From positions 124,001 through 188,000 of the IMG/VR virus record IMGVR_UViG_3300034073_003542: a stretch of 64,000 nt of DNA. The stretch is one strand, 5' to 3'. The DNA comes from a virus. Shown here in pieces: positions 4,830 through 61,527 of this stretch (its first letter is position 1; the number at the start of each line of letters is the position of its first letter). Below the pieces are notes generated by a model. It saw only the letters and a program-made list of their open reading frames with translations, made no database searches and was not told where the DNA came from. A program made the position numbers and the translations under genes.

Positions 4830-5365
4830 TATACTCTTTGTGTTCTATTTTTAGCAGGAGAATAATTGTAGATGACTACTGGTATATTCTTCCAGATATC
4901 ATCAATAAGGTCAGAAATGAAGGCCCAGTCGCCGCCTGCGAGTTGACTACCGAATTTATTGCAGTGCAGTTCTACTTTATCAAATCCACTATTCTTGATA
5001 TAATTGCGAACATTAACCATACAATTGACTAATGCTTCGTAGTTTAGTGGGCGAGGATTGGTTTTTGGATTAATGATTCCATTTTGGGCGACCATATTCG
5101 CAAAAATTAAACGGTGGTTATGAAGGGGACTTTTAACTGTCTCTACATATTGTACATAACCTAGAGGTGGTTTTGTAAGCAAATCAAAGTTTGCTGCCAC
5201 TTCTGGAAATGCGTTACGAACAGCTAGAGCAAATCCACTACCAAATCCTCTAACGTTATTACAAACGTGTGGAATGATTACAGAACTACCCAAATTACCG
5301 CTTAAAACAAGCTTTTTTGCTGTGCTGAAAATTTCGCTATTAACAACACGTACATATGGATTCAT
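4829..5365 (-). CDS. macro-domain (ADP-ribose-binding) protein
   Basis: 178 residues. SSVIIPHVCNNVRGFGSGFALAV is a macro-domain binding loop (IPHxxNxxGxxGxGxA), and the C-terminal LHCNKFGSQLAGGDWAFI has the GxxxAGGDW ending typical of phage and bacterial macro domains. Relatives remove or bind ADP-ribose, or hydrolyse ADP-ribose-1-phosphate made during tRNA splicing or repair. It is the first gene after the 5403-5431 promoter; GGAGAAATATC precedes the ATG. Either countering host ADP-ribosylation or supporting RNA repair would fit; neither is shown. Confidence 0.82.
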   Translation of the reverse strand: MNPYVRVVNSEIFSTAKKLVLSGNLGSSVIIPHVCNNVRGFGSGFALAVRNAFPEVAANFDLLTKPPLGYVQYVETVKSPLHNHRLIFANMVAQNGIINPKTNPRPLNYEALVNCMVNVRNYIKNSGFDKVELHCNKFGSQLAGGDWAFISDLIDDIWKNIPVVIYNYSPAKNRTQRV

Positions 5366-5545: not shown

Positions 5546-5591
5546 TAAGGTAGATTATAGCTAGTAATATATCCCACCTATGGAGAAAAAT

Positions 5592-6776
5592 ATGAATATC
5601 AAAACTCGCCGCTCTGCATTTACCCTTGTCGAACTTCTAGTTGTAATTGCTATTATTGGTTTATTAGTAGCAATTTTACTCCCAGCCCTTTCTTCTGCTA
5701 GAAATTCTGCTCAGGCAGCAGCAAGCGGATCAAATTTAAGCACATTTGGTCGTGGTTTCATGATTTTCTCCACAGAAGATAAGCGATCACGCATGAGTAG
5801 CGGCGCTTTTGATCATTTAAGAGATGGAGATGTTAGAAAAGTTGGATGGGTTGCTGATATTATTAGGATTAAGGTGTCAAATCCAGGTAAGGCGCTTGAT
5901 CCAGCTAATACTTATCAGGTAAATGAAAAGGTTGCCGACTATATTGGAGCTACCAATACAACTAAAGCTAATCCTGTTCGCTGGAATAATAAAACAGCAG
6001 ATGTTCATTTTGGTGGAGCTAATGGCCCCACAGATTTTGCTGGATCACCAACACAAGCACAAAAGAATAAATTATGGGAAGACGGATATAACACAAACTA
6101 TGCAACAACATGGCAGTTTAGTCGTGGCGATGTTGTTCCTGGGTCTGACGGAAAGATTAATTCTAATGGAGCTATGAATCCTGTAACATCTGATCCTTCT
6201 AAATGTCCTCTAGATGGTGACGGCCCATTAACAGAAAAGAAATTAACTGGTGGAGGAGTAAGTCGTGATAGAGTTGCTGTAATGGGTGCGGCTCGTCCAG
6301 GCGACGGTTCTGATGCTCTTGTTACTGATGCAATGTTTACCACCTTTAATAATTTCTTTGGAACAGATCAAACAATGATTACAACTGGAGGTATTTTAGT
6401 TGAATCATTTACTGATGGAATGAATTGTCCTTTTACTGATGTTACTCTTGGTGGTGGCACAGATCAAAAAATTCATGAAATTAATGATATTTTCCCTATT
6501 CATGGTTCTCGTAAAACAACTGTTGGAGCAAATACTCTTCTTACAGGAGGATATGCCCAAGTTTTATTTGCGGACGGTCACGTTGCCAAAATTGAGGATG
6601 TGGGCGGTTATCAAGATAATCCTGACAGTTGGCTAGGCCCATATAAAACTGGTGGTGTTCCAACAGCCTCTTCGTTTGAAATTAATAAGAGTGGCTATGA
6701 TGAAGTTAGAGAACTGATCTGGCTCCATCAAATAGGTAACTCGTCAGGTGGTGTTGGCGGAGGTTCTGTAGAGTAA
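5592..6776 (+). CDS. prepilin-type (type IV pilin/pseudopilin-like) protein
   Basis: 394 residues, one of only three plus-strand genes. After a short basic leader (MNIKTRRSA) comes FTLVELLVVIAIIGLLVAIL, the prepilin cleavage and methylation segment with Glu5, then a long extracytoplasmic part. The C-terminal region has VLFADGHVAKI near residue 326, a motif common in the many pilin-like proteins of Planctomycetes and Verrucomicrobia. A host prepilin peptidase (PilD) and an assembly machine would be needed. The start at 5592 is preferred over 5580 because GGAGAAAAAT lies just upstream. It has its own promoter region. It may have been acquired from the host; a phage surface or pilus-decoy role is speculation. 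Confidence 0.85.
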   Translation: MNIKTRRSAFTLVELLVVIAIIGLLVAILLPALSSARNSAQAAASGSNLSTFGRGFMIFSTEDKRSRMSSGAFDHLRDGDVRKVGWVADIIRIKVSNPGKALDPANTYQVNEKVADYIGATNTTKANPVRWNNKTADVHFGGANGPTDFAGSPTQAQKNKLWEDGYNTNYATTWQFSRGDVVPGSDGKINSNGAMNPVTSDPSKCPLDGDGPLTEKKLTGGGVSRDRVAVMGAARPGDGSDALVTDAMFTTFNNFFGTDQTMITTGGILVESFTDGMNCPFTDVTLGGGTDQKIHEINDIFPIHGSRKTTVGANTLLTGGYAQVLFADGHVAKIEDVGGYQDNPDSWLGPYKTGGVPTASSFEINKSGYDEVRELIWLHQIGNSSGGVGGGSVE

Positions 6777-39561: not shown

Positions 39562-40118
39562 TTAAAAGCTAACTCCCAATGACTTGCACAAACAGGCAAA
39601 TATTTTTCTTCGCATCCTAATTCCACAGAATTACCTTCGATGGTAGGAATCCCATCTATCATTTTCAGATTGAATACAGCCTTTTGTCTACAATAAAAAC
39701 ACGTAGTCTTAATTTCATCAATAACATCAGCTATAGATAATAATAAAGCAGAAGCAGGAAATGGTTCTTTTCTAAAATCAGTTCTTAAACCATAACAAAT
39801 AATAGGTGGACTACCTGTATATGTAGCTCTCCTCATACATTTAATGATTTCGGTTGATAAAAATTGTACTTCATCAACTAAAATAATATCAGCATCTTCA
39901 TGCCAGCCAAACATAGTTTGGTCTTGTTGAATAATAAAATCCGCCTCGGTTTCTAATCCGGCTCTAGATTTTACCGTTCTTTCTCCAAAACGAGTATCAA
40001 TAGCTGGCTTAACTACATCTACTTTCTTACCTTGTTGACGATAAGAATGAGCGGTTGCTAATAAATCAAGCGTTTTGGCACTTCCTACAACCCCATACTT
40101 AAAATAGAGTTTAGCCAT
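39558..40118 (-). CDS. tdk: thymidine kinase (type II)
   Basis: 186 residues. P-loop region FKYGVVGSAKT, then the ILVDEVQFLS Walker B/acid motif, and the lasso-like DFRKEPFPAS region; a zinc site is formed by CFYCRQKA and the later CASHWEL. It makes dTMP from thymidine. Paired with ThyX for thymidylate supply. The P-loop here (GVVGSAKT) differs from the usual GxMxSGKS. The stop shares a base with the second LAGLIDADG gene start upstream. Confidence 0.88.
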   Translation of the reverse strand: MAKLYFKYGVVGSAKTLDLLATAHSYRQQGKKVDVVKPAIDTRFGERTVKSRAGLETEADFIIQQDQTMFGWHEDADIILVDEVQFLSTEIIKCMRRATYTGSPPIICYGLRTDFRKEPFPASALLLSIADVIDEIKTTCFYCRQKAVFNLKMIDGIPTIEGNSVELGCEEKYLPVCASHWELAFK

Positions 40119-40987
40119 TATTTATATTCCTTATAACATTTATTGTTAGCTATTGAATTAATTATTCCATGACTGATATTATAGTCCTTAGCTATATGTC
40201 TATGTGTTTCTTTTCCTTTAGATAGTCTTTTTCTTATTTCTTTAACTTGTGTAAGATTTAATTTTCTTTGACTTAATAAATATTGTTCATATTTTATTCT
40301 TTGTTTTATTATCTTATCAAAATTTTTCTTTTTTCTTTTTAGGAATATTGTTGCGTCCTTATACATAAAATCCATTAGTTTTTTAATTTCTTTGTACCCA
40401 TATAATCTAATATCGCAAGTATAAGTGTTTTGTTTGGTTTTTTTATATTTTACCATAAAAGAAGATATATTTAATTTTCTTTTAAAGAACCTTAATAAAT
40501 ATTCACTAAAGTCACTATTAGAAATAATCATAAAGGTATATTTATTTTGATTTTTACTCTTCGTAACAGATATACCTCCATCACCATCAAAATATCCTCT
40601 TATAAAGTGATGAATTAAATTTTTAGGTATGTGTCTGTATGGAAATTTTAAGGTATAACTTTTTTGATTATCTAATCCCTTATTAATTAAGTGATTAGTA
40701 AAAATTTCTCCGTATATTTTGATATATTTATATTTACTTTGTTTATTTTTGTTGTTTGGAGTATAATGTTTCGAATCTCCTATTTTCCCAGAATATTTTG
40801 TGTACTTTTTAAAGTAACGCAATATCTCTATATCTCTAGCCTGTAATTCAATTTGAACGTACTTATTACTTTTCTTAGTAGAGATATGACCATCTGCACA
40901 TATAAATCCAAATAAATACGCTTTATCTTCTGTATCTATGACTTTAAAATAATCGTGATCTTTATTATGTATATGTTTATTATTCAT
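40118..40987 (-). CDS. LAGLIDADG-type homing endonuclease (second)
   Basis: 289 residues. The first LAGLIDADG helix YLFGFICADGH and the second FIRGYFDGDGG frame the core; the C-terminal LTQVKEIRKRLSKGKETHRH looks like a NUMOD-type DNA-binding helix with an HTH (YNISHGIINSIANNK). Free-standing between thymidine kinase and RNA ligase, overlapping the ligase gene by 8 nt. It may target one of those genes in related phages. Confidence 0.82.
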   Translation of the reverse strand: MNNKHIHNKDHDYFKVIDTEDKAYLFGFICADGHISTKKSNKYVQIELQARDIEILRYFKKYTKYSGKIGDSKHYTPNNKNKQSKYKYIKIYGEIFTNHLINKGLDNQKSYTLKFPYRHIPKNLIHHFIRGYFDGDGGISVTKSKNQNKYTFMIISNSDFSEYLLRFFKRKLNISSFMVKYKKTKQNTYTCDIRLYGYKEIKKLMDFMYKDATIFLKRKKKNFDKIIKQRIKYEQYLLSQRKLNLTQVKEIRKRLSKGKETHRHIAKDYNISHGIINSIANNKCYKEYK

Positions 40988-42712: not shown

Positions 42713-42969
42713 CTTCGATTAACCTTTCTTGCTGGATCGCGTATAGGAGTTTTTGCAATTTGTGGATTAGGAAGTTCTGTTGTAAATTTTGTAAAATGCC
42801 ATTGATTAATAGGATTATGATATTCTCCCCATCCTTGTTTATCGTATAAGTCTTGTATCTTTTCGTCAATTTCTTTTGATAGTTCTTTATATGATTTTGA
42901 TGGAAGTATCCAGCTAAAAATTGAACACATTCCTTCTCCAATACTTTGAAATCCCTTCATTATAGACAT
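42709..42969 (-). CDS. hypothetical protein, 86 aa
   Basis: Starts MSIMKGFQSIGEGMCSIFSW, a partly hydrophobic amphipathic N-terminus, then helical and basic (IAKTPIRDPARKVNRR). ATG shares a base with the preceding stop. Unrecognised. Confidence 0.45.
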   Translation of the reverse strand: MSIMKGFQSIGEGMCSIFSWILPSKSYKELSKEIDEKIQDLYDKQGWGEYHNPINQWHFTKFTTELPNPQIAKTPIRDPARKVNRR

Positions 42970-43199
42970 TATGATACTTCCTTCTCTGTTACATTAGTAA
43001 GTTTGGTTAAATAAACCTCAAAGATGTTAATATGGGAGTATTTAAAAATATGATTATCTAAAAGTTCAATTATAACACCTTCTCCTATACAATCTTTAGC
43101 AGATGAGAATTTTCCGCAAACTCTTGCTTTGCCCTCATAAATACATGGATGATTAACTTGTACAATATCTCCAAACTGTAGATTCAATAAACTATCCAT
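42969..43199 (-). CDS. hypothetical SH3-like protein, 76 aa
   Basis: LNLQFGDIVQVNHPCIYEGK, ARVCGKFSSAKDCIGEG then IIELLDNHIF look like a small beta barrel. The start at 43199 (GAGGAGAAG just upstream) is chosen over 43220. Confidence 0.5.
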   Translation of the reverse strand: MDSLLNLQFGDIVQVNHPCIYEGKARVCGKFSSAKDCIGEGVIIELLDNHIFKYSHINIFEVYLTKLTNVTEKEVS

Positions 43200-44230: not shown

Positions 44231-45076
44231 ATGAAAAAAACAAAGAAATGTAAACAGTGTGGAAAAAGAAAATCTATAGACAAATACTATAAACACAAGA
44301 CTTGTAAAGATGGATATAGAGATATTTGTAAGATATGTATTAATAAATTATCTAAAGAATATGTAGAGAAAAATAAAGAAAAAATTGCCCAACGACAAAA
44401 AAAATATAGAGAAAAAAATAAAGAAAAGCTTTCTCAACAAAGAAAAGACTATAGAGAGAAAAATAAAGAAAAGGTCAAAAAACAAAAACAGGCCAACTAT
44501 TTAAAACACAAAAATAAGACATTACAAAAAAGTAAAGAATATAAAGAAAAACTTAAAAAAGAAAATCCAGAAAAATTAAAATTATGGCGAAAAAATTATT
44601 GTATTAGACATAAAAATAAATTAAAAGAATATAAGCGAAACTATCACCAAAAAAACAAAGTAAAAATAAGAAATATAAGGAATAAATATAGAAAATATAA
44701 ATACGATTCAGATATTGGATATAGAATGCAAGAGAATATTAGGAGTAGAATGAGATATCTCTTGAAAGGATATTATAAAAGTAAAGCCACACTAGAATTA
44801 TTAGGATGTTCGGACGATCAACTTAAAAAACATCTAGAAAAACAATTTGAGCCAAGTATGACTTGGGATAATTACGGATATTATGGGTGGCATATTGACC
44901 ATATCAGACCATGTTCTAGTTTTGATTTATCTGATCTAGAACAACAAAAACAGTGCTTTCATTATACGAATTTACAGCCATTATGGGCAAAAGACAATTA
45001 TATTAAAGGTAATAAGATACCTATTTCTTCCAGTGATGATCTTCATGGCCTGCCATTAAACACCCATACGGAATAA
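44231..45076 (+). CDS. HNH homing-type endonuclease
   Basis: 281 residues on the plus strand. CKQCGKRKSIDKYYKHKTC with a later CKICINKL forms a zinc finger; a long Lys/Glu-rich coiled helix follows; the C-terminal WHIDHIRPCSSFDL and LQPLWAKDNYIKGNK is the HNH (His-Asp...Asn) site. Many free phage HNH proteins have this layout. The start at 44231 is chosen over 44114 because the family begins with the Cys finger. It is inserted next to rtcB and overlaps its 3' end by 56 nt on the opposite strand. Confidence 0.82.
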   Translation: MKKTKKCKQCGKRKSIDKYYKHKTCKDGYRDICKICINKLSKEYVEKNKEKIAQRQKKYREKNKEKLSQQRKDYREKNKEKVKKQKQANYLKHKNKTLQKSKEYKEKLKKENPEKLKLWRKNYCIRHKNKLKEYKRNYHQKNKVKIRNIRNKYRKYKYDSDIGYRMQENIRSRMRYLLKGYYKSKATLELLGCSDDQLKKHLEKQFEPSMTWDNYGYYGWHIDHIRPCSSFDLSDLEQQKQCFHYTNLQPLWAKDNYIKGNKIPISSSDDLHGLPLNTHTE

Positions 45077-46397
45077 TTTCATCCACTATATTTCCAAGAT
45101 TAAATTTTTGGATTTGGTTCTTTACTTTTTCAGCATTTTTATAAGCAGATGGAAGTTCTGTTATATCCATTTTTCCTGTGTAGAATCTTACATCTAGACC
45201 CCTAGTATCTTCATCAAACAATTCATATCCTGTTTTGTTTTGTAGAGATATTTTAGTGTATTCAGTTCTACTCATTTCGCGGCCAGCACCATGACTTGTA
45301 AAACCTAAATTAGTTTCGGTTTCTTCTCCATTAACAATAAGAATACCATCTCTCATATTAAGAGGTATTAATCTTAGACCATTAGTTGAGTCAGGAACAA
45401 ATTCATTTAATAATGGTGTTGCTCCTTTGGCATGGATGTAAGTATTATCTTTTTTAAACACAAAATTATGTTCATTCCAATAATTGTCATGTATATTTAC
45501 ATTAATTTTACTAGCAATTTCCGTATGAATAAGCGTATGATTTAGCTTTGTCCATTCTCTAACTACTTGTAAAGCGTTCCAATATGTAACACCTTCTTCT
45601 GTGTCCATTGGAATCCAGCCTAAATTATCATTAACGTTTGGAGCTATTTCTTTACGAAACTTCTCAGCTATGTCATTTCCCTTCTTGAATAATAAAGCTC
45701 CGAAAGAGCGACTGCCATGATGAGTAACTAATACTGTTTCTCCAGAGCTTTTTAAGTAGCCTACAAATAGGAAATGGTTGCCGTTTCCTTGAGTTCTTAA
45801 ATCTTTTTGGGCTTTATCTAGACTTTTTTCTCCAGATAAATATAGATTGTTAAGAATATCGTTCTTTAAAGGTTCTGGTATAATATCTTTTGGATTTTGT
45901 CTTCCACCAGCACCAAAATGTGTTATTTTTTCTGCTTTATCTAGGACAATTTTTGGATCTATTTTTCCTAGATTAGAAAACATAACTGAACAACATACGT
46001 CGGCACTGTGAAATTTTGGGTGGATTGCATTTAAAGTTTGTATGACTCCACCCACAGGAATATCAAACTCGCCCGTAGGGCAAGCGTCAGGCATCACAGC
46101 AGCATTTATAGCGGTTGGAGCCACCAAAATATTGTGCATAGCCCGCGTGACCGAAAACATATTGTTAACTTCGGCCTCATTTTTTGGGTCGATTTCTATA
46201 TTGCAATGAAAATTGATTGGTTCATCCCTTGGTTCCATTGTTTTTGGTGGAAGAGGAACAAAACGTGTCTGAATTTCGTTATACAGATTTTCTTCGCTGT
46301 ACTTGTCTCGATTTTGATTTGCCCACTCAATAGCTGACTTAAACCATTTCCCAGGGGTAAAACCCATACTGATTAAAGATTGACCAGTAATTGACAT
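45021..46397 (-). CDS. rtcB: RtcB-type RNA ligase
   Basis: 458 residues. FHSADVCCSVMF (Mn site), QGNGNHFLFVG, LVTHHGSRSFGALLF, IHAKGATPLLN and SHGAGREMSRTEY are the RtcB hallmarks, the last with the guanylated His segment. RtcB joins 2',3'-cyclic phosphate or 3'-phosphate ends to 5'-OH, reversing many tRNA anticodon nuclease cuts. The start at 46397 follows GAGGTGTATG; the promoter is at 46447-46474. The C-terminal HEDHHWKK overlaps the opposing HNH gene. Confidence 0.92.
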   Translation of the reverse strand: MSITGQSLISMGFTPGKWFKSAIEWANQNRDKYSEENLYNEIQTRFVPLPPKTMEPRDEPINFHCNIEIDPKNEAEVNNMFSVTRAMHNILVAPTAINAAVMPDACPTGEFDIPVGGVIQTLNAIHPKFHSADVCCSVMFSNLGKIDPKIVLDKAEKITHFGAGGRQNPKDIIPEPLKNDILNNLYLSGEKSLDKAQKDLRTQGNGNHFLFVGYLKSSGETVLVTHHGSRSFGALLFKKGNDIAEKFRKEIAPNVNDNLGWIPMDTEEGVTYWNALQVVREWTKLNHTLIHTEIASKINVNIHDNYWNEHNFVFKKDNTYIHAKGATPLLNEFVPDSTNGLRLIPLNMRDGILIVNGEETETNLGFTSHGAGREMSRTEYTKISLQNKTGYELFDEDTRGLDVRFYTGKMDITELPSAYKNAEKVKNQIQKFNLGNIVDEIIPYGCLMAGHEDHHWKK

Positions 46398-46446: not shown

Positions 46447-46474
46447 ATTATATCGGAATGGATGTGTCTGTCAA
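46447..46474 (-). promoter_or_regulatory. sigma70-like promoter of rtcB
   Basis: TTGACA (46474-46469), 16 nt, TATAAT (46452-46447); the -35 TGA is the stop of the gene at 46471. Confidence 0.86.
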
Positions 46475-46692
46475 TCTACGAGTTTTTTCTCGGTGATTAT
46501 TACTCGTATGGGTGCTGGCCTATATTGTATAACAGTTGGTACTTCAAACATACCTGGCCTATATGCGTTCATATCGTAAACTTCAACTTCTCCAGTTTCA
46601 GTATTACAATAAGTGCAGTAATTTATAGGAACACCTTCTGCATCAAACAATATAGTTGGTTGACCAACCGTATTTTCAAGTGTTAGAATCAT
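46471..46692 (-). CDS. hypothetical protein, 73 aa
   Basis: Beta-rich (LFDAEGVPINYCTYCNTETG; YRPGMFEVPTVIQYRPAPIR) with CTYC that may bind metal. Unrecognised. Overlaps the gene upstream by 17 nt. Confidence 0.48.
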   Translation of the reverse strand: MILTLENTVGQPTILFDAEGVPINYCTYCNTETGEVEVYDMNAYRPGMFEVPTVIQYRPAPIRVIITEKKLVD

Positions 46693-49135: not shown

Positions 49136-49163
49136 ATTGTACCACAACCAAACTATCTGTCAA
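49136..49163 (-). promoter_or_regulatory. sigma70-like promoter
   Basis: TTGACA (49163-49158), 16 nt, TACAAT (49141-49136); its -35 TGA is the stop of the gene at 49160. Confidence 0.83.
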
Positions 49164-49426
49164 TCGCCCAATTCATTTTCTTGAATAGGCCCAAAAACAT
49201 CAGCAAAAGTAAATCCTTCTAAATGGGTAAATAGTGATGGAATGTTATACATAGGTATTTTAATAGTAAATGACAGATCCATTCCGTCTGGTGGATCATT
49301 TGTTGTCCAGCTAATATTTGTTACTTGTTGATCTAAAATAAACTTTTTTAGAGCTATTCGTTTTTTCTTACGGTCCTTAAAATATCTACGAATCATTGGA
49401 ACAAGTTGTGGGCTTTTTGGGTCCAA
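49160..49426 (-). CDS. hypothetical protein, 88 aa
   Basis: Unrecognised. A beta-rich part (DGMDLSFTIKIPMYNIPSLF) similar in style to the gene upstream, which has LRISRDCFSFSIAW. The two overlap by 34 nt and may be related, or one gene split by a frameshift; I see no decisive similarity. Confidence 0.45.
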   Translation of the reverse strand: MDPKSPQLVPMIRRYFKDRKKKRIALKKFILDQQVTNISWTTNDPPDGMDLSFTIKIPMYNIPSLFTHLEGFTFADVFGPIQENELGD

Positions 49427-49614
49427 GCAATACTAAAAGAAAAACAATCTCTACTAATTCTTAAATCTATAAGATTCATTTCTATCGCTAGTCCTGCTTT
49501 TTTCTGGTTACAAAATTTTGTTAAAAGGTCTTGATGATTTATTTCTGGAGATTTATATATCTCGCGTAATATTTCTATTACATATTTCTTTTCATTAAAA
49601 TATTCTTCAATCAT
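49393..49614 (-). CDS. hypothetical protein, 73 aa
   Basis: Begins MIEEYFNEKKYVIEILREIY, like several short proteins here that start MI-x-x-YF (59717, 59986). A helical N-terminus and beta-rich end. The promoter at 49998-50025 lies upstream across the plus-strand gene. Confidence 0.45.
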   Translation of the reverse strand: MIEEYFNEKKYVIEILREIYKSPEINHQDLLTKFCNQKKAGLAIEMNLIDLRISRDCFSFSIAWTQKAHNLFQ

Positions 49615-54737: not shown

Positions 54738-54765
54738 ATTATAGCATACTGATGGAGTCTGTCAA
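54738..54765 (-). promoter_or_regulatory. sigma70-like promoter of HAD operon
   Basis: TTGACA (54765-54760), 16 nt, TATAAT (54743-54738); the -35 TGA is the stop of the gene at 54762. Confidence 0.86.
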
Positions 54766-55691: not shown

Positions 55692-56543
55692 TTATATTGT
55701 AACCTTTTGTTTAGATGAAATAGTGTAACTTTTAATAATATCTTGAAATCGCCAAAAATCTTTAAAACAGCACAAAAATCCAGACGCATGAGTAAAATGA
55801 GAGTAAGGATTTGGTTGAATCTTGATGTTGTCAGTATTGATTGAGATTAAACGATATCCTGAATCTTCTCTACTATCTTGAGTTAAAATTAAAGAAATGT
55901 CAAGTTTCTTCATTTTACAGAAATATTGCGTAGGTAGCTTATCAAAATCGTTACGGTTAACACCAACGCATCCTGTTACATCTAATATATTGTGTCCGCT
56001 AACTTCACCAAGAACATAGCCGTCCTCGATTATATCAATTAGATTTTTCTGTTCTTCTATTGTACGACAGATATTTTCTCCGATCTTAGCCATCAAAATT
56101 AAGATTGGGCCATTAACTCTACAATCTTGAAATTCGCTGAATATTTCAAGTACACCCTCAACAATGGGTGATCTTGTCATCTTAACAGACTCAATATCAG
56201 TTTTGATTAACTTAGCTGCGGCAGTAGGACCGAATGAATCACAAACTTCAATAAATCTTAGCTCTGGCATGAAATCTCTAAATTCAATATCTCCATAAAA
56301 ATATTCCAGAATTTGTGTAAAAGAACAAATTTCTTGCTTGAATTGGTGATGGTCAAAATTCTTTAAGTTAGGATTAAACTGTAGACCTTGATCTATTACC
56401 CAAATATTAGGATCGCCCAAATCTTCTTGGGTGAAATCACGCCGATAGATTTCACATTGAGGTAATTTATAGAGAAGCACACAAGCCGCCAAAAAATCGT
56501 CGGAATGAGCCGAATACTTGTGAACTATAACTTTTTCAATCAT
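55692..56543 (-). CDS. MYG1-like DHH-type hydrolase
   Basis: 283 residues. IVHKYSAHSDDFLAACVLLY then IWVIDQGLQFNPNLKNFDHH corresponds to the MYG1/UPF0160 opening (THxGxFHxDE...VVDxGG...FDHHQ), a DHH-phosphoesterase-like family; in eukaryotes MYG1 is reported as an exonuclease. A second part (ASGFLCCFKDFWRF) matches the family end with HxxGF. Likely a nuclease or phosphoesterase acting on RNA or DNA. Confidence 0.68.
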   Translation of the reverse strand: MIEKVIVHKYSAHSDDFLAACVLLYKLPQCEIYRRDFTQEDLGDPNIWVIDQGLQFNPNLKNFDHHQFKQEICSFTQILEYFYGDIEFRDFMPELRFIEVCDSFGPTAAAKLIKTDIESVKMTRSPIVEGVLEIFSEFQDCRVNGPILILMAKIGENICRTIEEQKNLIDIIEDGYVLGEVSGHNILDVTGCVGVNRNDFDKLPTQYFCKMKKLDISLILTQDSREDSGYRLISINTDNIKIQPNPYSHFTHASGFLCCFKDFWRFQDIIKSYTISSKQKVTI

Positions 56544-57607: not shown

Positions 57608-57635
57608 ATTATACGGGAGTTCCTGTGTTTGTCAA
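57608..57635 (-). promoter_or_regulatory. sigma70-like promoter
   Basis: TTGACA (57635-57630), 16 nt, TATAAT (57613-57608); ATG at 57590. It starts the unit towards MYG1-like. Confidence 0.86.
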
Positions 57636-58025
57636 CTACCTAGTTAAGTTCATGCACTCTTTTTGGGCGGATTTATAATATCTGGGGTTTTCTGTTTTGA
57701 GATATGTTATATATAGATCGAATATTCCTTTTGTTACTTGTTTGTATGTATTTGTCGATCCACAAATCCTGTCAACAAAACTCTTTTTATCAGTATTGAT
57801 TGTATAAAGAGGAAATGGATCGTGTGGTTTCTTGCCATCAAATCTGATATAATATTTAGTGTTAGTTGGATTAACTTCTCTAACATCTCTATTTAATCCT
57901 GCAACCAATTCTTTAGCGAATACTTTATCGTCATCCTTATTTCGTAGAGAATTTTCATATTCATCTTCCAATTCTTGATATTGTAGAGTAGTATAGAATT
58001 TATTTTGTTTTGGTACTTTACTCAT
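57636..58025 (-). CDS. hypothetical protein, 129 aa
   Basis: Charged alpha/beta protein (YQELEDEYENSLRNKDDDKV; YYIRFDGKKPHDPFPLYTIN) with C-terminal YYKSAQKECMNL. Unrecognised. Overlaps the next gene upstream by 8 nt. Confidence 0.48.
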   Translation of the reverse strand: MSKVPKQNKFYTTLQYQELEDEYENSLRNKDDDKVFAKELVAGLNRDVREVNPTNTKYYIRFDGKKPHDPFPLYTINTDKKSFVDRICGSTNTYKQVTKGIFDLYITYLKTENPRYYKSAQKECMNLTR

Positions 58026-58224: not shown

Positions 58225-58252
58225 ATTATAACAGAAGTAGAGAGATTGTCAA
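58225..58252 (-). promoter_or_regulatory. sigma70-like promoter
   Basis: TTGACA (58252-58247), 16 nt, TATAAT (58230-58225); the -35 TGA is the stop of the gene at 58249. Confidence 0.87.
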
Positions 58253-58416
58253 CCTTCCTTGATAGTTTTTTCTGTTATTTTCCCCGTTTTTTCTAGTCTC
58301 TCTTGTTCTTCATACTCCATTAATCCAACTACAAGTAAAGATATTTTATCAGCTATTGTTTGTCTTTCTTCTTCCGTCCAACTATCAAAAAAATGATCTA
58401 TACTATCTTCAGCCAT
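58249..58416 (-). CDS. hypothetical protein, 55 aa
   Basis: ATG (58416) to TGA (58249). MAEDSIDHFFDSWTEEERQT then helical with RLEKTGKITEKTIKEG. It resembles the tail of the gene upstream (LEKGEKITKKIIETE), so they may be related. Confidence 0.5.
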   Translation of the reverse strand: MAEDSIDHFFDSWTEEERQTIADKISLLVVGLMEYEEQERLEKTGKITEKTIKEG

Positions 58417-58580
58417 TGTAATTCAGTTTCTATGATTTTCTTTGTTATTTTTTCGCCTTTTTCTAATTGAGTTAATTCTGTTTGGTCAACAATTCGTCTC
58501 ATAAATTTAGTCCAATAGTCCATAACATTAGTGGTGTTTTCTTGATTGCTTGGAAATTTGTCGAAATATTCTTCGTTCAT
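58398..58580 (-). CDS. hypothetical protein, 60 aa
   Basis: NEEYFDKFPSNQENTTNVMD then helical LEKGEKITKKIIETELQWLK. The ATG overlaps the upstream stop (ATGA). Related in its middle to 58249-58416. Confidence 0.5.
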   Translation of the reverse strand: MNEEYFDKFPSNQENTTNVMDYWTKFMRRIVDQTELTQLEKGEKITKKIIETELQWLKIV

Positions 58581-58771
58581 TGTATTGTTTTTCTTGTCTG
58601 ATATCCTTCTTGATATCCTTCTGGACTAAAACTGTGAGATATACATTCAGGAACAAATTGCCAATCCCTACTAACGTATTTTACATATAGCCCAGTATTA
58701 TTGTCAATATATCCTCCATCTACAATTACTGTAACTTTATCTGGCGACGATTTTTCTGGTTTCAAAGCCAT
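58577..58771 (-). CDS. GYxxGYxTRK-tail family, member 5 (64 aa)
   Basis: N-terminal MALKPEKSSPDKV; ends GYQEGYQTRKTIQ, the shared tail motif. Its ATG and the codons for MALKPEKS are out-of-frame readings of the tail-coding DNA of member 4, whose Glu-Gly codons supply a GAAGGA ribosome site. Middle (VIVDGGYIDNNTGLYVKYVS) is beta-rich. Function unknown. Confidence 0.7.
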   Translation of the reverse strand: MALKPEKSSPDKVTVIVDGGYIDNNTGLYVKYVSRDWQFVPECISHSFSPEGYQEGYQTRKTIQ

Positions 58772-59015
58772 GTTGATATCCTTCTTCGTAAATATTATGT
58801 GGATCTCTATATTCTATACTTCTAGTTGTTCCATCTAAGTATGTGATATCAATATTGTGTGTCATTCTACCAGCAATATCAGCAATGTTTGGAGCAAATC
58901 CATCCCATATTTGGTCTATTTCTCTTGTACTAGAAATAGTTAGACCTGAAATATTTACAGCTTCTTCTCTTGATATACCAAATGACGCTAATATTGATAT
59001 GGTTGCTTCATCCAT
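58737..59015 (-). CDS. GYxxGYxTRK-tail family, member 4 (92 aa)
   Basis: MDEATISILASFGISREEAV is a helical start; a beta part (IDITYLDGTTRSIEYRDPHN) follows, then the tail EEGYQHGFETRKIVAR. The final 35 nt encode the start of member 5 in another frame. It begins 3 nt after member 3 stops. Confidence 0.7.
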   Translation of the reverse strand: MDEATISILASFGISREEAVNISGLTISSTREIDQIWDGFAPNIADIAGRMTHNIDITYLDGTTRSIEYRDPHNIYEEGYQHGFETRKIVAR

Positions 59016-59018
59016 TGA

Positions 59019-59249
59019 TTATTCTTGTATAATAAGTCTTGTCTGGTATCCTTTTCGATATCCCATTTTATATCTGTCAAGAAAAACATTTTCAAAACAA
59101 CCAGAACCCATAAAAGCAAAATCGCCCAATAAATATTCAAAATTAACAACTCCAGATGAAAAAGGTAGAGGTTCTTCTATTTGCATCTCTGGTATCCCTG
59201 GTATTGTTACGCTTTCAGGTTGCAATAATTTTTCTTGTTTCATAGCCAT
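59019..59249 (-). CDS. GYxxGYxTRK-tail family, member 3 (76 aa)
   Basis: MAMKQEKLLQPESVTIPGIP, then a beta-rich centre (GVVNFEYLLGDFAFMGSGCF) and the tail MGYRKGYQTRLIIQE. Its ATG is within the tail-coding DNA of member 2 (AGGATATACTC before it). Confidence 0.7.
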   Translation of the reverse strand: MAMKQEKLLQPESVTIPGIPEMQIEEPLPFSSGVVNFEYLLGDFAFMGSGCFENVFLDRYKMGYRKGYQTRLIIQE

Positions 59250-59382
59250 GAGTATATCCTGCTTCTAATTTTTGTAGAGAACCAAATAGAAAATCCATTA
59301 ATCGTTTAGTATATGGCTTCTCTTCGTTAGCTTCACAGTAACGATATATTGATTCAATATTGTAAGATTTTTCTTGTTTCAT
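59215..59382 (-). CDS. GYxxGYxTRK-tail family, member 2 (55 aa)
   Basis: MKQEKSYNIESIYRYCEANE then LMDFLFGSLQKLEAGYTHGY and the tail ending ETRKIIAT. Its ATG lies inside the tail DNA of member 1: TATGAAACAAGAAAAATC reads YETRKI in that gene and MKQEKS here. The start at 59382 is chosen because the longer frame from 59478 is the wrong reading of member 1. Confidence 0.68.
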   Translation of the reverse strand: MKQEKSYNIESIYRYCEANEEKPYTKRLMDFLFGSLQKLEAGYTHGYETRKIIAT

Positions 59383-59545
59383 AACCTTCCTCGTAACCTT
59401 CTGGATTACCCAATTCATAATTAATGAATTGAAGACTTCTTCTATCCATAATAATTGGACCCATTGTTTGGTAAGCAAAAAAGGGCATTCTATAACGATC
59501 TTCGTTTTCTGGTATTTCTGGTTTGACTAATCCTCCTGTTGCCAT
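59354..59545 (-). CDS. GYxxGYxTRK-tail family, member 1 (63 aa)
   Basis: MATGGLVKPEIPENEDRYRM then FFAYQTMGPIIMDRRSLQFI and the tail EGYEEGYETRKILQY. The tail DNA includes GAGGAAGG, which acts as ribosome site for member 2. It lies 2 nt from the gene at 59548. Confidence 0.68.
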   Translation of the reverse strand: MATGGLVKPEIPENEDRYRMPFFAYQTMGPIIMDRRSLQFINYELGNPEGYEEGYETRKILQY

Positions 59546-59547
59546 TA

Positions 59548-59724
59548 TTATTCACTCTCGATCTTTTTTAGTGTTTCTTTTCCTGGGATATATCCTTCCC
59601 AATCAGTCATGTCATCCAAAATTATAGTAGCGGCTGATCTTTCAAAAGCCAACTCCAGTTCTCTGAACAAAATAGCTGTAAGGTCTATATGACACGCCCA
59701 AAAATTGTCGATTTCATCAGGCAT
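59548..59724 (-). CDS. hypothetical protein, 58 aa
   Basis: MPDEIDNFWACHIDLTAILF then helical AFERSAATIILDDMTDWEGY with a Lys-rich end. ATGATG start inside the end of the gene at 59717. It has an EGY near the tail but not the full family motif. Confidence 0.52.
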   Translation of the reverse strand: MPDEIDNFWACHIDLTAILFRELELAFERSAATIILDDMTDWEGYIPGKETLKKIESE

Positions 59725-59989
59725 CATTTCCGCCCCAAAACTCTTTTAACACTATCTTTAAGTTTATATTATTTTTTCTGTTATATATACGAGCCATTAA
59801 TCTTTTATCAGATGGATCAGACGGCCTCCAAAATTCAACAACATTATCATTAGGAAATCTATAACTATGTGGTGGATCATATTGTCGTATATAAGATATT
59901 TCTCTACTATATCTTTCATAAACATAATATAGTTGCTCTTTAGCTTCATCAAGTAATTGTTTTCTGTTTTCGAAATATTGTTTGATCAT
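59717..59989 (-). CDS. hypothetical protein, 90 aa
   Basis: MIKQYFENRKQLLDEAKEQL, YVYERYSREISYIRQYDPPH and a basic beta part (RLMARIYNRKNNINLKIVLK). Shares the MIxQYFxxR start with the gene at 59986, suggesting a common origin or a repeated start signal. Confidence 0.48.
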   Translation of the reverse strand: MIKQYFENRKQLLDEAKEQLYYVYERYSREISYIRQYDPPHSYRFPNDNVVEFWRPSDPSDKRLMARIYNRKNNINLKIVLKEFWGGNDA

Positions 59990-60153
59990 ATATTATTTAT
60001 AGCAACGATTGTTGAAGCTATTTCTATAATTAGAAAAGATATCAATAAAGCCATTGATCCTAATATAAAACCCGTTGCACTTATAATAATAGTCTGTAAG
60101 GCTATATAACCATATTTTTCTCTTCGTTTTCGTTTAAAGTATTGTCGAATCAT
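59986..60153 (-). CDS. membrane protein, 55 aa
   Basis: MIRQYFKRKRREKYGYIALQ, then two hydrophobic parts (IIISATGFILGSMALLISFL; IIEIASTIVAI). ATG shares a base with the preceding stop; ATGA with the gene downstream. Confidence 0.52.
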   Translation of the reverse strand: MIRQYFKRKRREKYGYIALQTIIISATGFILGSMALLISFLIIEIASTIVAINNI

Positions 60154-60617
60154 TATACGGTAGCACCAATTATTTCTATCAAAGTAGTTTGTTTTGATTC
60201 TATTTCAGATAGGTCTTTCTCTATAAGATCAAGAATGTTTGATTTGAAATAGACTTCTTGTAGATGAGCATAAAGAGTTCCGTGATATTCTGACTCAAAA
60301 CCTGACTCACACATAAGAGGAGAGGTTGAATATGGATCTTTTTCCCATACATAAAGATATCCTCTTCTGTCATATTCGCCCAATCTAAGAAGATTTGAAT
60401 ATTTTCCCAGTTCTTTATATCCATATTTTATTACTGCTACATATAAATCTTCTATAAAGGTTAGTTTTTCTATTATATTATTGAGAATCTTAAAACCAAA
60501 ATGTCTTTTAATAGCTCCGTATTCTGGTAATTTTAACTCACTAATAGTAGTATAGATTTGATTTATTCTATTTCTTATTGAATCAATCTGTGAAGATTTA
60601 GTTTCTAGTTGTAACAT
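60153..60617 (-). CDS. tandem paralogue, 154 aa (member C)
   Basis: MLQLETKSSQIDSIRNRINQ, then IKRHFGFKILNNIIEKLTFI, a variable centre, and VYFKSNILDLIEKDLSEIES, shared with members A and B. All helical with a small beta insertion. Unknown function. Confidence 0.58.
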   Translation of the reverse strand: MLQLETKSSQIDSIRNRINQIYTTISELKLPEYGAIKRHFGFKILNNIIEKLTFIEDLYVAVIKYGYKELGKYSNLLRLGEYDRRGYLYVWEKDPYSTSPLMCESGFESEYHGTLYAHLQEVYFKSNILDLIEKDLSEIESKQTTLIEIIGATV

Positions 60618-60903
60618 ATAGCTGGACTTCTTGTTTGATTTGTTTTAGGTCTTGATTCAAAAGATCAATAAGATTATCTTTAAAAGAGCATATAATATCT
60701 CCATTTGGATCTATTCTTAGAACCTCAAGATATTTTTTGTATTCATGATATACACTCTCATGTACAGGAAATGTATTAAGCATAGAATAATTTATACTAT
60801 TATTAATCATATCTAACTTTCTTTCAAAGAAGTATCTCTTAATAAGACTCATATCTTTGATTAGATATTTAAGTTCGGTGATCTTATCGTATATTGCTAT
60901 CAT
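60598..60903 (-). CDS. tandem paralogue, 101 aa (member B)
   Basis: MIAIYDKITELKYLIKDMSL, IKRYFFERKLDMINNSINYS and a terminal FKDNLIDLLNQDLKQIKQ match the other members, but the central part is shorter. Overlaps member C by 20 nt and member A by 4 nt. Confidence 0.56.
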   Translation of the reverse strand: MIAIYDKITELKYLIKDMSLIKRYFFERKLDMINNSINYSMLNTFPVHESVYHEYKKYLEVLRIDPNGDIICSFKDNLIDLLNQDLKQIKQEVQLYVTTRN

Positions 60904-61325
60904 ATCATTTTATCTAGTTCTTTCTCGATAAGGTCTAATACATTTGGCTTAAAGTACATATCTGGAAGTAACGATTGACCAAATTGATTGCAATAATGTC
61001 CTATGTCAATATATTTATCTGATATAATCATATTAAATGTTTCGTATGTATCGTAATTATATATTACGAAACTAAGTTCTGTAGTTACGCCACATTCTTC
61101 ATAAGAACAATATTGAGATATAGTAGTACAATATCTATTAAGATTTTCTTCTCCATACATATCAAAAAGAGTTAATACGGATTTAAACTCATTTAGTTTA
61201 TCAAATACACTTCTTCTTTTTATTGTCTCGAAATGTTTTTTAATCATTCCAAGCTTAGAATAATCACCACCAACAAGAGAATTTCTAGTTTGATGAATTT
61301 TATGGAGAAGCTCTTTGATAGTCAT
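60900..61325 (-). CDS. tandem paralogue, 141 aa (member A)
   Basis: MTIKELLHKIHQTRNSLVGG, MIKKHFETIKRRSVFDKLNE, ending MYFKPNVLDLIEKELDKMI. Same layout as members B and C (IK+HF block, then FKxNxLDLIEK). The start at 61325 lies in the end of the gene upstream (26 nt overlap). Confidence 0.58.
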   Translation of the reverse strand: MTIKELLHKIHQTRNSLVGGDYSKLGMIKKHFETIKRRSVFDKLNEFKSVLTLFDMYGEENLNRYCTTISQYCSYEECGVTTELSFVIYNYDTYETFNMIISDKYIDIGHYCNQFGQSLLPDMYFKPNVLDLIEKELDKMI

Positions 61326-61527
61326 ACATTTTCTTTCTCTTGATTCTGTTAGATATAATCTGTTTGGTTTGATCTTTATTGATAACCCCAATATAATTCA
61401 AACCCAATAAATAAGACAAATCTTCTGGATCAATACCGCACTGATCTACTTTGACTCGCTCTTTTTTGCAGATTCCTAGAAAATCATTTAGAAAAAATCC
61501 CGAGACAAATTGATTAAAAGTTTTCAT
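61300..61527 (-). CDS. hypothetical protein, 75 aa
   Basis: MKTFNQFVSGFFLNDFLGIC then IDPEDLSYLLGLNYIGVINK; weakly similar to the helical tail of GatB/YqeY-type proteins (GLNYIGVINKDQTKQIIS), but too short to say so firmly. Confidence 0.45.
   Translation of the reverse strand: MKTFNQFVSGFFLNDFLGICKKERVKVDQCGIDPEDLSYLLGLNYIGVINKDQTKQIISNRIKRKKMYDYQRASP

Follow-up and report, generated by a model that had tools for sequence, protein, structure and literature searches.

A tandem array of small phage genes with a shared C-terminal segment conserved as protein

Introduction

The capsid targeting sequence (CTS) of phage T4 is N-terminal and is cleaved by the prohead protease. Promoter-stem-loop (PeSL) cassettes are non-coding regulatory DNA; such cassettes and modular shuffling in T4-type phages are reportedly the subject of Arbiol 2010 and Comeau 2014, both cited in PMC4503421. 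The small T4 proteins IPI, IPII and IPIII differ widely in their bodies and have in common one short conserved terminal tag (PMC3012670). In FliH, GYxxGFxxG patterns are over-represented and have been proposed to pack helices (PMC2674601). In translationally coupled overlapping gene pairs the second gene begins within the first (PMC6728339, PMC10666635), and genes for subunits of heteromeric complexes are enriched for short overlaps, with mainly 1- and 4-nt overlaps having been studied (PMC10666635). Here we describe a phage locus in which a repeated C-terminal segment, diverse small bodies and overlapping gene ends occur together. It lies in a stretch of 64,000 nt (the window), positions 124001-188000 of the 209,847-bp (209.8 kb) IMG/VR record IMGVR_UViG_3300034073_003542, whose DNA is AT-rich (34% GC).

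Results

Five tandem genes on the minus strand, A to E, occupy positions 58577-59545 of the window and all carry a C-terminal tail of the form GYxxG[YF]xTR(K); the ORFs and their tails are as the first-pass annotation had described them. Gene A (59354-59545, 63 aa) ends in EGYEEGYETRKILQY (59354-59401), which holds the start and the ribosome site of B, and gene B (59215-59382, 55 aa, ATG at 59382) in AGYTHGYETRKIIAT (59215-59262), which holds the start of C; a second in-frame ATG for B at 59418 is without a Shine-Dalgarno sequence. The tail of gene C (59019-59249, 76 aa), MGYRKGYQTRLIIQE at 59019-59066, has no nested start, that of gene D (58737-59015, 92 aa), EGYQHGFETRKIVAR at 58737-58784, holds the start of E, and gene E (58577-58771, 64 aa), with the tail EGYQEGYQTRKTIQ at 58577-58621, overlaps the next gene, F, by only 4 nt (ATGA). 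One written-out form of the tail peptide is GYQEGYQTRKTIQ.

The regular expression [GA][YF]..[GA][YF].TR has exactly five matches in the window, the tails of A to E, and finds nothing in the other ~146 kb of the record. A PSSM built from the five tails was used to score ORF C-termini, 851 from the record and 4047 from five relatives. A to E, the training sequences, scored 34-39 bits; gene U led the 846 other ORFs of the record at 13.2 bits (runner-up 8.8), and the highest score in the relatives was 10.5 bits. By both measures the motif is, within the record, exclusive to the array, and a chance origin of the shared tail was rejected. Gene U (59548-59727, minus strand, 59 aa) lies directly upstream of A and ends in the degenerate tail EGYIPGKETLKKIESE (59548-59598). 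Its adjacency makes a common origin likely, and judged by its sequence U is probably a sixth member with a decayed tail. Codon usage is coding-like in A to E and in U.

Directly downstream of the array lie genes F (58398-58580) and G (58249-58416), both on the minus strand; the two are paralogous (z=4.5) and carry another tail, LEKxxKIT[KE]KxI. G is the end of the run. A second tail, GKIT[NE]KxI, is common to F and G (58249-58580) and to an FQIGQKV family about 10 kb away (L009:4581-4784, 5095-5322), and the bodies of the two look different.

The bodies of the array proteins are about 40 to 77 aa long. With tail and overlap removed, none can be aligned; the best of 15 pairs, A-C, reached p=0.048, uncorrected. 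End-restricted similarity between genes of this genome involved 12 C-terminal pairs, compared with no N-terminal and one internal pair. Among the small genes of six genomes, 17 pairs were similar at the C-terminus only, 2 at the N-terminus only and 3 in mid-protein, the array contributing 10 of the 17.

The first-pass annotation had placed the start of the next gene inside the preceding tail at three junctions, with the ribosome site in its Glu-Gly codons, and this holds, the codons being Glu/Ala-Gly. On the minus strand, A and B overlap by 29 nt (59354-59382), with the Shine-Dalgarno-like GAGGAAGG at 59385-59392; B and C overlap by 35 nt (59215-59249), with AGGA at 59257-59260, and D and E by 35 nt (58737-58771), with AAGGA at 58779-58783. 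The predicted Shine-Dalgarno pairing is -5.9 kcal/mol for B, -4.8 for C and -5.5 for E (gene median -4.0). The C-D junction has no overlap and the E-F junction only the four nucleotides given above; neither D nor F has a Shine-Dalgarno sequence in the preceding tail, and none was found for D, F and G. Like coupled overlapping genes, the array has a downstream start and ribosome site inside the upstream coding sequence, at three of its four A-E junctions. In the record as a whole, 12 of 270 neighbouring gene pairs overlap by 25 nt or more, three of the 12 in the array, so this type of overlap is not unique to it. No terminator-like sites were found inside the array. The junction is an ordinary translational overlap with putative coupling and does not lock two proteins together.

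Because no homologous array was found in other phages, selection could only be judged from the five in-genome copies, which are not independent. Across these, the tail core codons have a pS of 0.55 and a pN of 0.03 (pN/pS 0.05), and the tails share 78 identical residue pairs, compared with 48.8 expected given the nucleotide differences (the maximum of 2000 simulations being 61). In the nested frame, which encodes the starts of B, C and E, identities are no more frequent than expected (16 against 16.2), and selection on both frames was rejected on these numbers. An ACA>ACC change, for example, is silent for the tail of D and turns Q into P in the start of E. Since, in addition, C and E keep the motif without any nested start, the selected object is the tail of the upstream protein, conserved as protein, with the downstream N-terminus as a passive passenger. 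That MKQEKS, MAMKQEKLL and MALKPEKSS look alike is a side effect of tail conservation, and it is chiefly the overlap that gives B, C and E their similar MKQEK-like N-termini. The earlier proposal that dual coding ties each tail to the next N-terminus is not supported, given the unconstrained nested frame, C and E and long overlaps elsewhere in the record, and the second-frame constraint that it suggested looking for at synonymous sites of the tail was not seen, substitutions there being random for the nested frame. A recent duplication could also leave tails alike for want of time; yet the synonymous sites have strongly diverged.

Conservation along the five related tails is most strongly periodic at 100 degrees per residue (p=0.003; p=0.008 when maximised over 95-105 degrees), with G, G and T together on one helical face, beside Y and R, and this pattern, which is similar to single GxxxG units of FliH, suggests a short GxxxG-type helix. 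AlphaFold models built from single sequences were not confident at the tail and did not show a helix there, the tail of D having a pLDDT below 50 and C being poor throughout. Foldseek with the D model returned no interpretable match, none reaching below E 0.04, and Pfam and PHROG contained no family below E 0.08 for the array proteins.

Searches of IMG/VR, INPHARED, GTDB genomes and 30 records from the phage's own clade turned up no relative of the array; as records very near the window may be excluded from these collections, the absence applies to more distant phages. One of three DNA-pattern searches of viral contigs with the tail gave no matches, the second gave one, in a methyltransferase-like frame, and the third nine, mostly chance frames broken by stops. 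Of 25 tail matches in GTDB contigs, none was array-like, and a few look like spore-protein sequences. INPHARED gave no tblastn match, PADLOC models of known anti-phage defence proteins did not match, and no syntenic locus was found in viral contigs through three neighbouring anchors (57636-58025, the MYG1-like gene and RtcB); gene 57636-58025 does have homologs in relatives, with nothing array-like nearby. Tandem genes with the GYxxGYxTRK tail were thus not seen in related phages, an outcome that the first-pass annotation had listed as counting against its proposal, and its remark that no such system had been described agrees with the lack of known relatives. A different C-terminal module does occur in one relative, G003, where three near-tandem genes (L098:5681-7492) share LTDKEIEAI..TLRNLLERTK, in general form LTxxE..AI...TL[RQ][NS]LLERTK. 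Their N-terminal parts are variable and very different in length, making the module a useful precedent for a shared C-terminus on variable N-terminal parts.

The long structural-like ORFs of the record are consistent with a jumbo tailed phage. A portal-like protein (L002:784-2982, record 784-2982) was identified by eye, and further ORFs are, as we take them by eye alone, rIIA-like, DnaB-like and RecA-like. IMG/VR contains at least 593 relatives of the portal-like protein, the best at 65% identity, and INPHARED none; by these matches the clade is abundant, widespread and uncultured, with no close sequenced relative in the collections searched. The array sits in a hypervariable accessory region, surrounded by small non-structural genes and a long way from the main cluster of large structural-like ORFs. 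The window has 15 perfect TTGACA-(15-17)-TATAAT promoters where 0.2 would be expected (for example at 58225-58252, 57608-57635 and 54738-54765); almost all are on the minus strand, and they punctuate the minus-strand block that contains the run; the nearest, a sigma-70-type TTGACA-16-TATAAT on the minus strand at 58225-58252, follows directly after G and bounds the run. These promoters suggest early transcription by the host polymerase, and with so many of them of perfect host type the genes around the array are probably early.

Several other genes stand out. A type IV pilin-like N-methylation motif (FTLVELLVV...) opens two genes, at 5580-6776 (plus strand) and L009:2087-2356 (minus strand); that of 5580-6776 resembles those of Planctomycetes-type hosts. 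The window also encodes an RtcB RNA ligase (45021-46397), a MYG1/UPF0160-like gene (55692-56543) and a LAGLIDADG-domain gene (40118-40987); for the RtcB and MYG1-like genes the scan of viral contigs gave no relatives. Three tandem genes at 60153-61391 look like paralogs, resembling one another in stretches such as LDLIEK[DE]L close to the C-terminus. Five small genes with different bodies (59717-60153, 49160-49614 and L009:4091-4324), one of them apparently a membrane protein, begin with MI[KRE]xY[FL]-like sequences; these might be an N-terminal equivalent of the array's common tail but were not significant in the pair survey.

A further C-terminal pattern, T.K.[ILV], ends 16 of 70 small genes between 166 and 198 kb of the record, against 0 of 112 small genes elsewhere and 0 of 104 large genes, motif and region both having been picked after looking at the data. 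The excess shrinks strongly once paralogs are collapsed; counted by family it amounts to 6-7 cases compared with 0.6 expected, and to 0-1 in each of five relatives. In an unbiased motif scan the leading triplet had p=2.1e-5, at the 5% family-wise threshold (1.9e-5). The wider [ILV]TxKx[ILV] signature of this region is suggestive only. It occurs a few residues from the end in several unrelated body families (42969-43199, 46471-46692, 58249-59727 and L009:4324-9264), is absent elsewhere in the record and is nearly absent in the five relatives.

Discussion

We consider it somewhat more probable than not that the array arose by tandem expansion of a family of small ORFans, probably early ones, with a constant C-terminal helix as docking motif and with bodies that have diverged or been swapped. 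The constant part is the 12-residue segment (E)GYxxG[YF]xTR(K)(I) at the C-terminus, conserved as protein and with alpha-helical periodicity. As a GxxxG-type helix it may dock the proteins onto a single shared partner or let them bind one another, and the bodies, changed beyond recognition, would differ in activity. The helix packing proposed for FliH (PMC2674601) and the short overlaps enriched in heteromeric-complex genes (PMC10666635) speak for this reading as well. A single mRNA probably serves for the translation of neighbouring genes. At three junctions the tail's Glu/Ala-Gly codons double as a putative Shine-Dalgarno sequence for the next gene, and this overlap would have been copied along with the duplications. 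Duplication as the source is supported by the recognisable full-length tandem paralogs nearby. The first-pass annotation had likewise proposed a partner-binding or sorting tag; a motif conserved at the protein level on unalignable bodies is what such a tag would show, and only the dual-coding lock attached to that proposal falls away.

The alternative that survives best, although we regard it as unlikely, is that these are plain tandem paralogs, homologous over the whole protein, in which the C-terminus is merely the slowest-evolving part of a common fold and no separable tag exists. Other tandem families close by (L009:4324-7686 and L009:8900-9264, record 192-197 kb) are indeed clear full-length paralogs with best-conserved C-termini, the bodies of A and C are borderline similar, and C and E start alike. 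The last likeness, however, lies mostly in the dual-coded stretch, the bodies differ nearly twofold in length, and A to E combine tail scores of 45-69 with body scores of only 15-33, whereas the bodies of the neighbouring families score at least 42.

It is rather improbable that the array belongs to a wider C-terminal tagging system, in which small proteins of the 30-kb accessory region share the core [ILV]TxKx[ILV], the GYxxGYx helix is its extended form, and a phage or host receptor gathers unrelated effectors at an assembly site, the virion or a replication compartment. Also improbable, in our judgement, is a virion-targeting tag, by which internal or ejected proteins would be packaged, as T4 IPI-III are, and delivered into the next host against diverse defences. 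The logic of a constant terminal tag on diverse small bodies would be that of T4 (PMC3012670), and the hypervariable accessory setting would suit it; the T4 tag, however, is N-terminal, and the array lies among small, probably early, non-structural genes, remote from the main structural-like block. The idea that the repeat is a DNA or RNA cassette, kept because it provides the next gene with a ribosome site and a start, or as a recombination hot spot like the T4 PeSL cassettes, with the tail as by-product, draws on the three of five tails that provide both signals and on two tail classes that differ where the start is made (CAT/GAA versus other codons), but it is largely refuted and its probability slight, since C and E retain the motif although no start is nested in them, the nucleotide changes are synonymous in the tail frame and random for the nested frame, and a Shine-Dalgarno sequence accounts for EG and not for Y, T or R.

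If the tail is a docking tag, a single bait could find its partner and give a handle on a whole set of unreadable phage ORFan proteins, and the array would be a C-terminal example, in a large uncultured clade, of the principle of conserved tag and variable body known from T4 internal proteins. The array further illustrates how gene ends that overlap and are conserved come about with no selection on the second frame.

Among described systems, coupled overlapping gene pairs resemble the array in having the downstream start within the upstream gene, but usually overlap by 1 or 4 nt at stop and start, whereas the array overlaps by 29-35 nt and brings its own Shine-Dalgarno sequence. The GxxxG repeats of FliH/YscL share the GYxxGY/F pattern, which in them lies on a predicted helix for which packing was proposed in FliH; they are long and lie inside an export protein, whereas the array has just one unit, followed by TRK, at the very end of the protein, and no homology was shown. 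Like PeSL cassettes, the array has a repeated element at the gene junctions of a hypervariable ORFan region, with bodies differing between copies; its element, however, is coding and constrained at the protein level rather than a non-coding promoter and stem-loop, which sets it apart from that class. The T4 internal proteins are the nearest analogue in logic, both systems combining a conserved tag with otherwise diverse small bodies, although there is no homology, the tag of the array is C-terminal in all members where the T4 CTS is N-terminal, and the array genes overlap through it.
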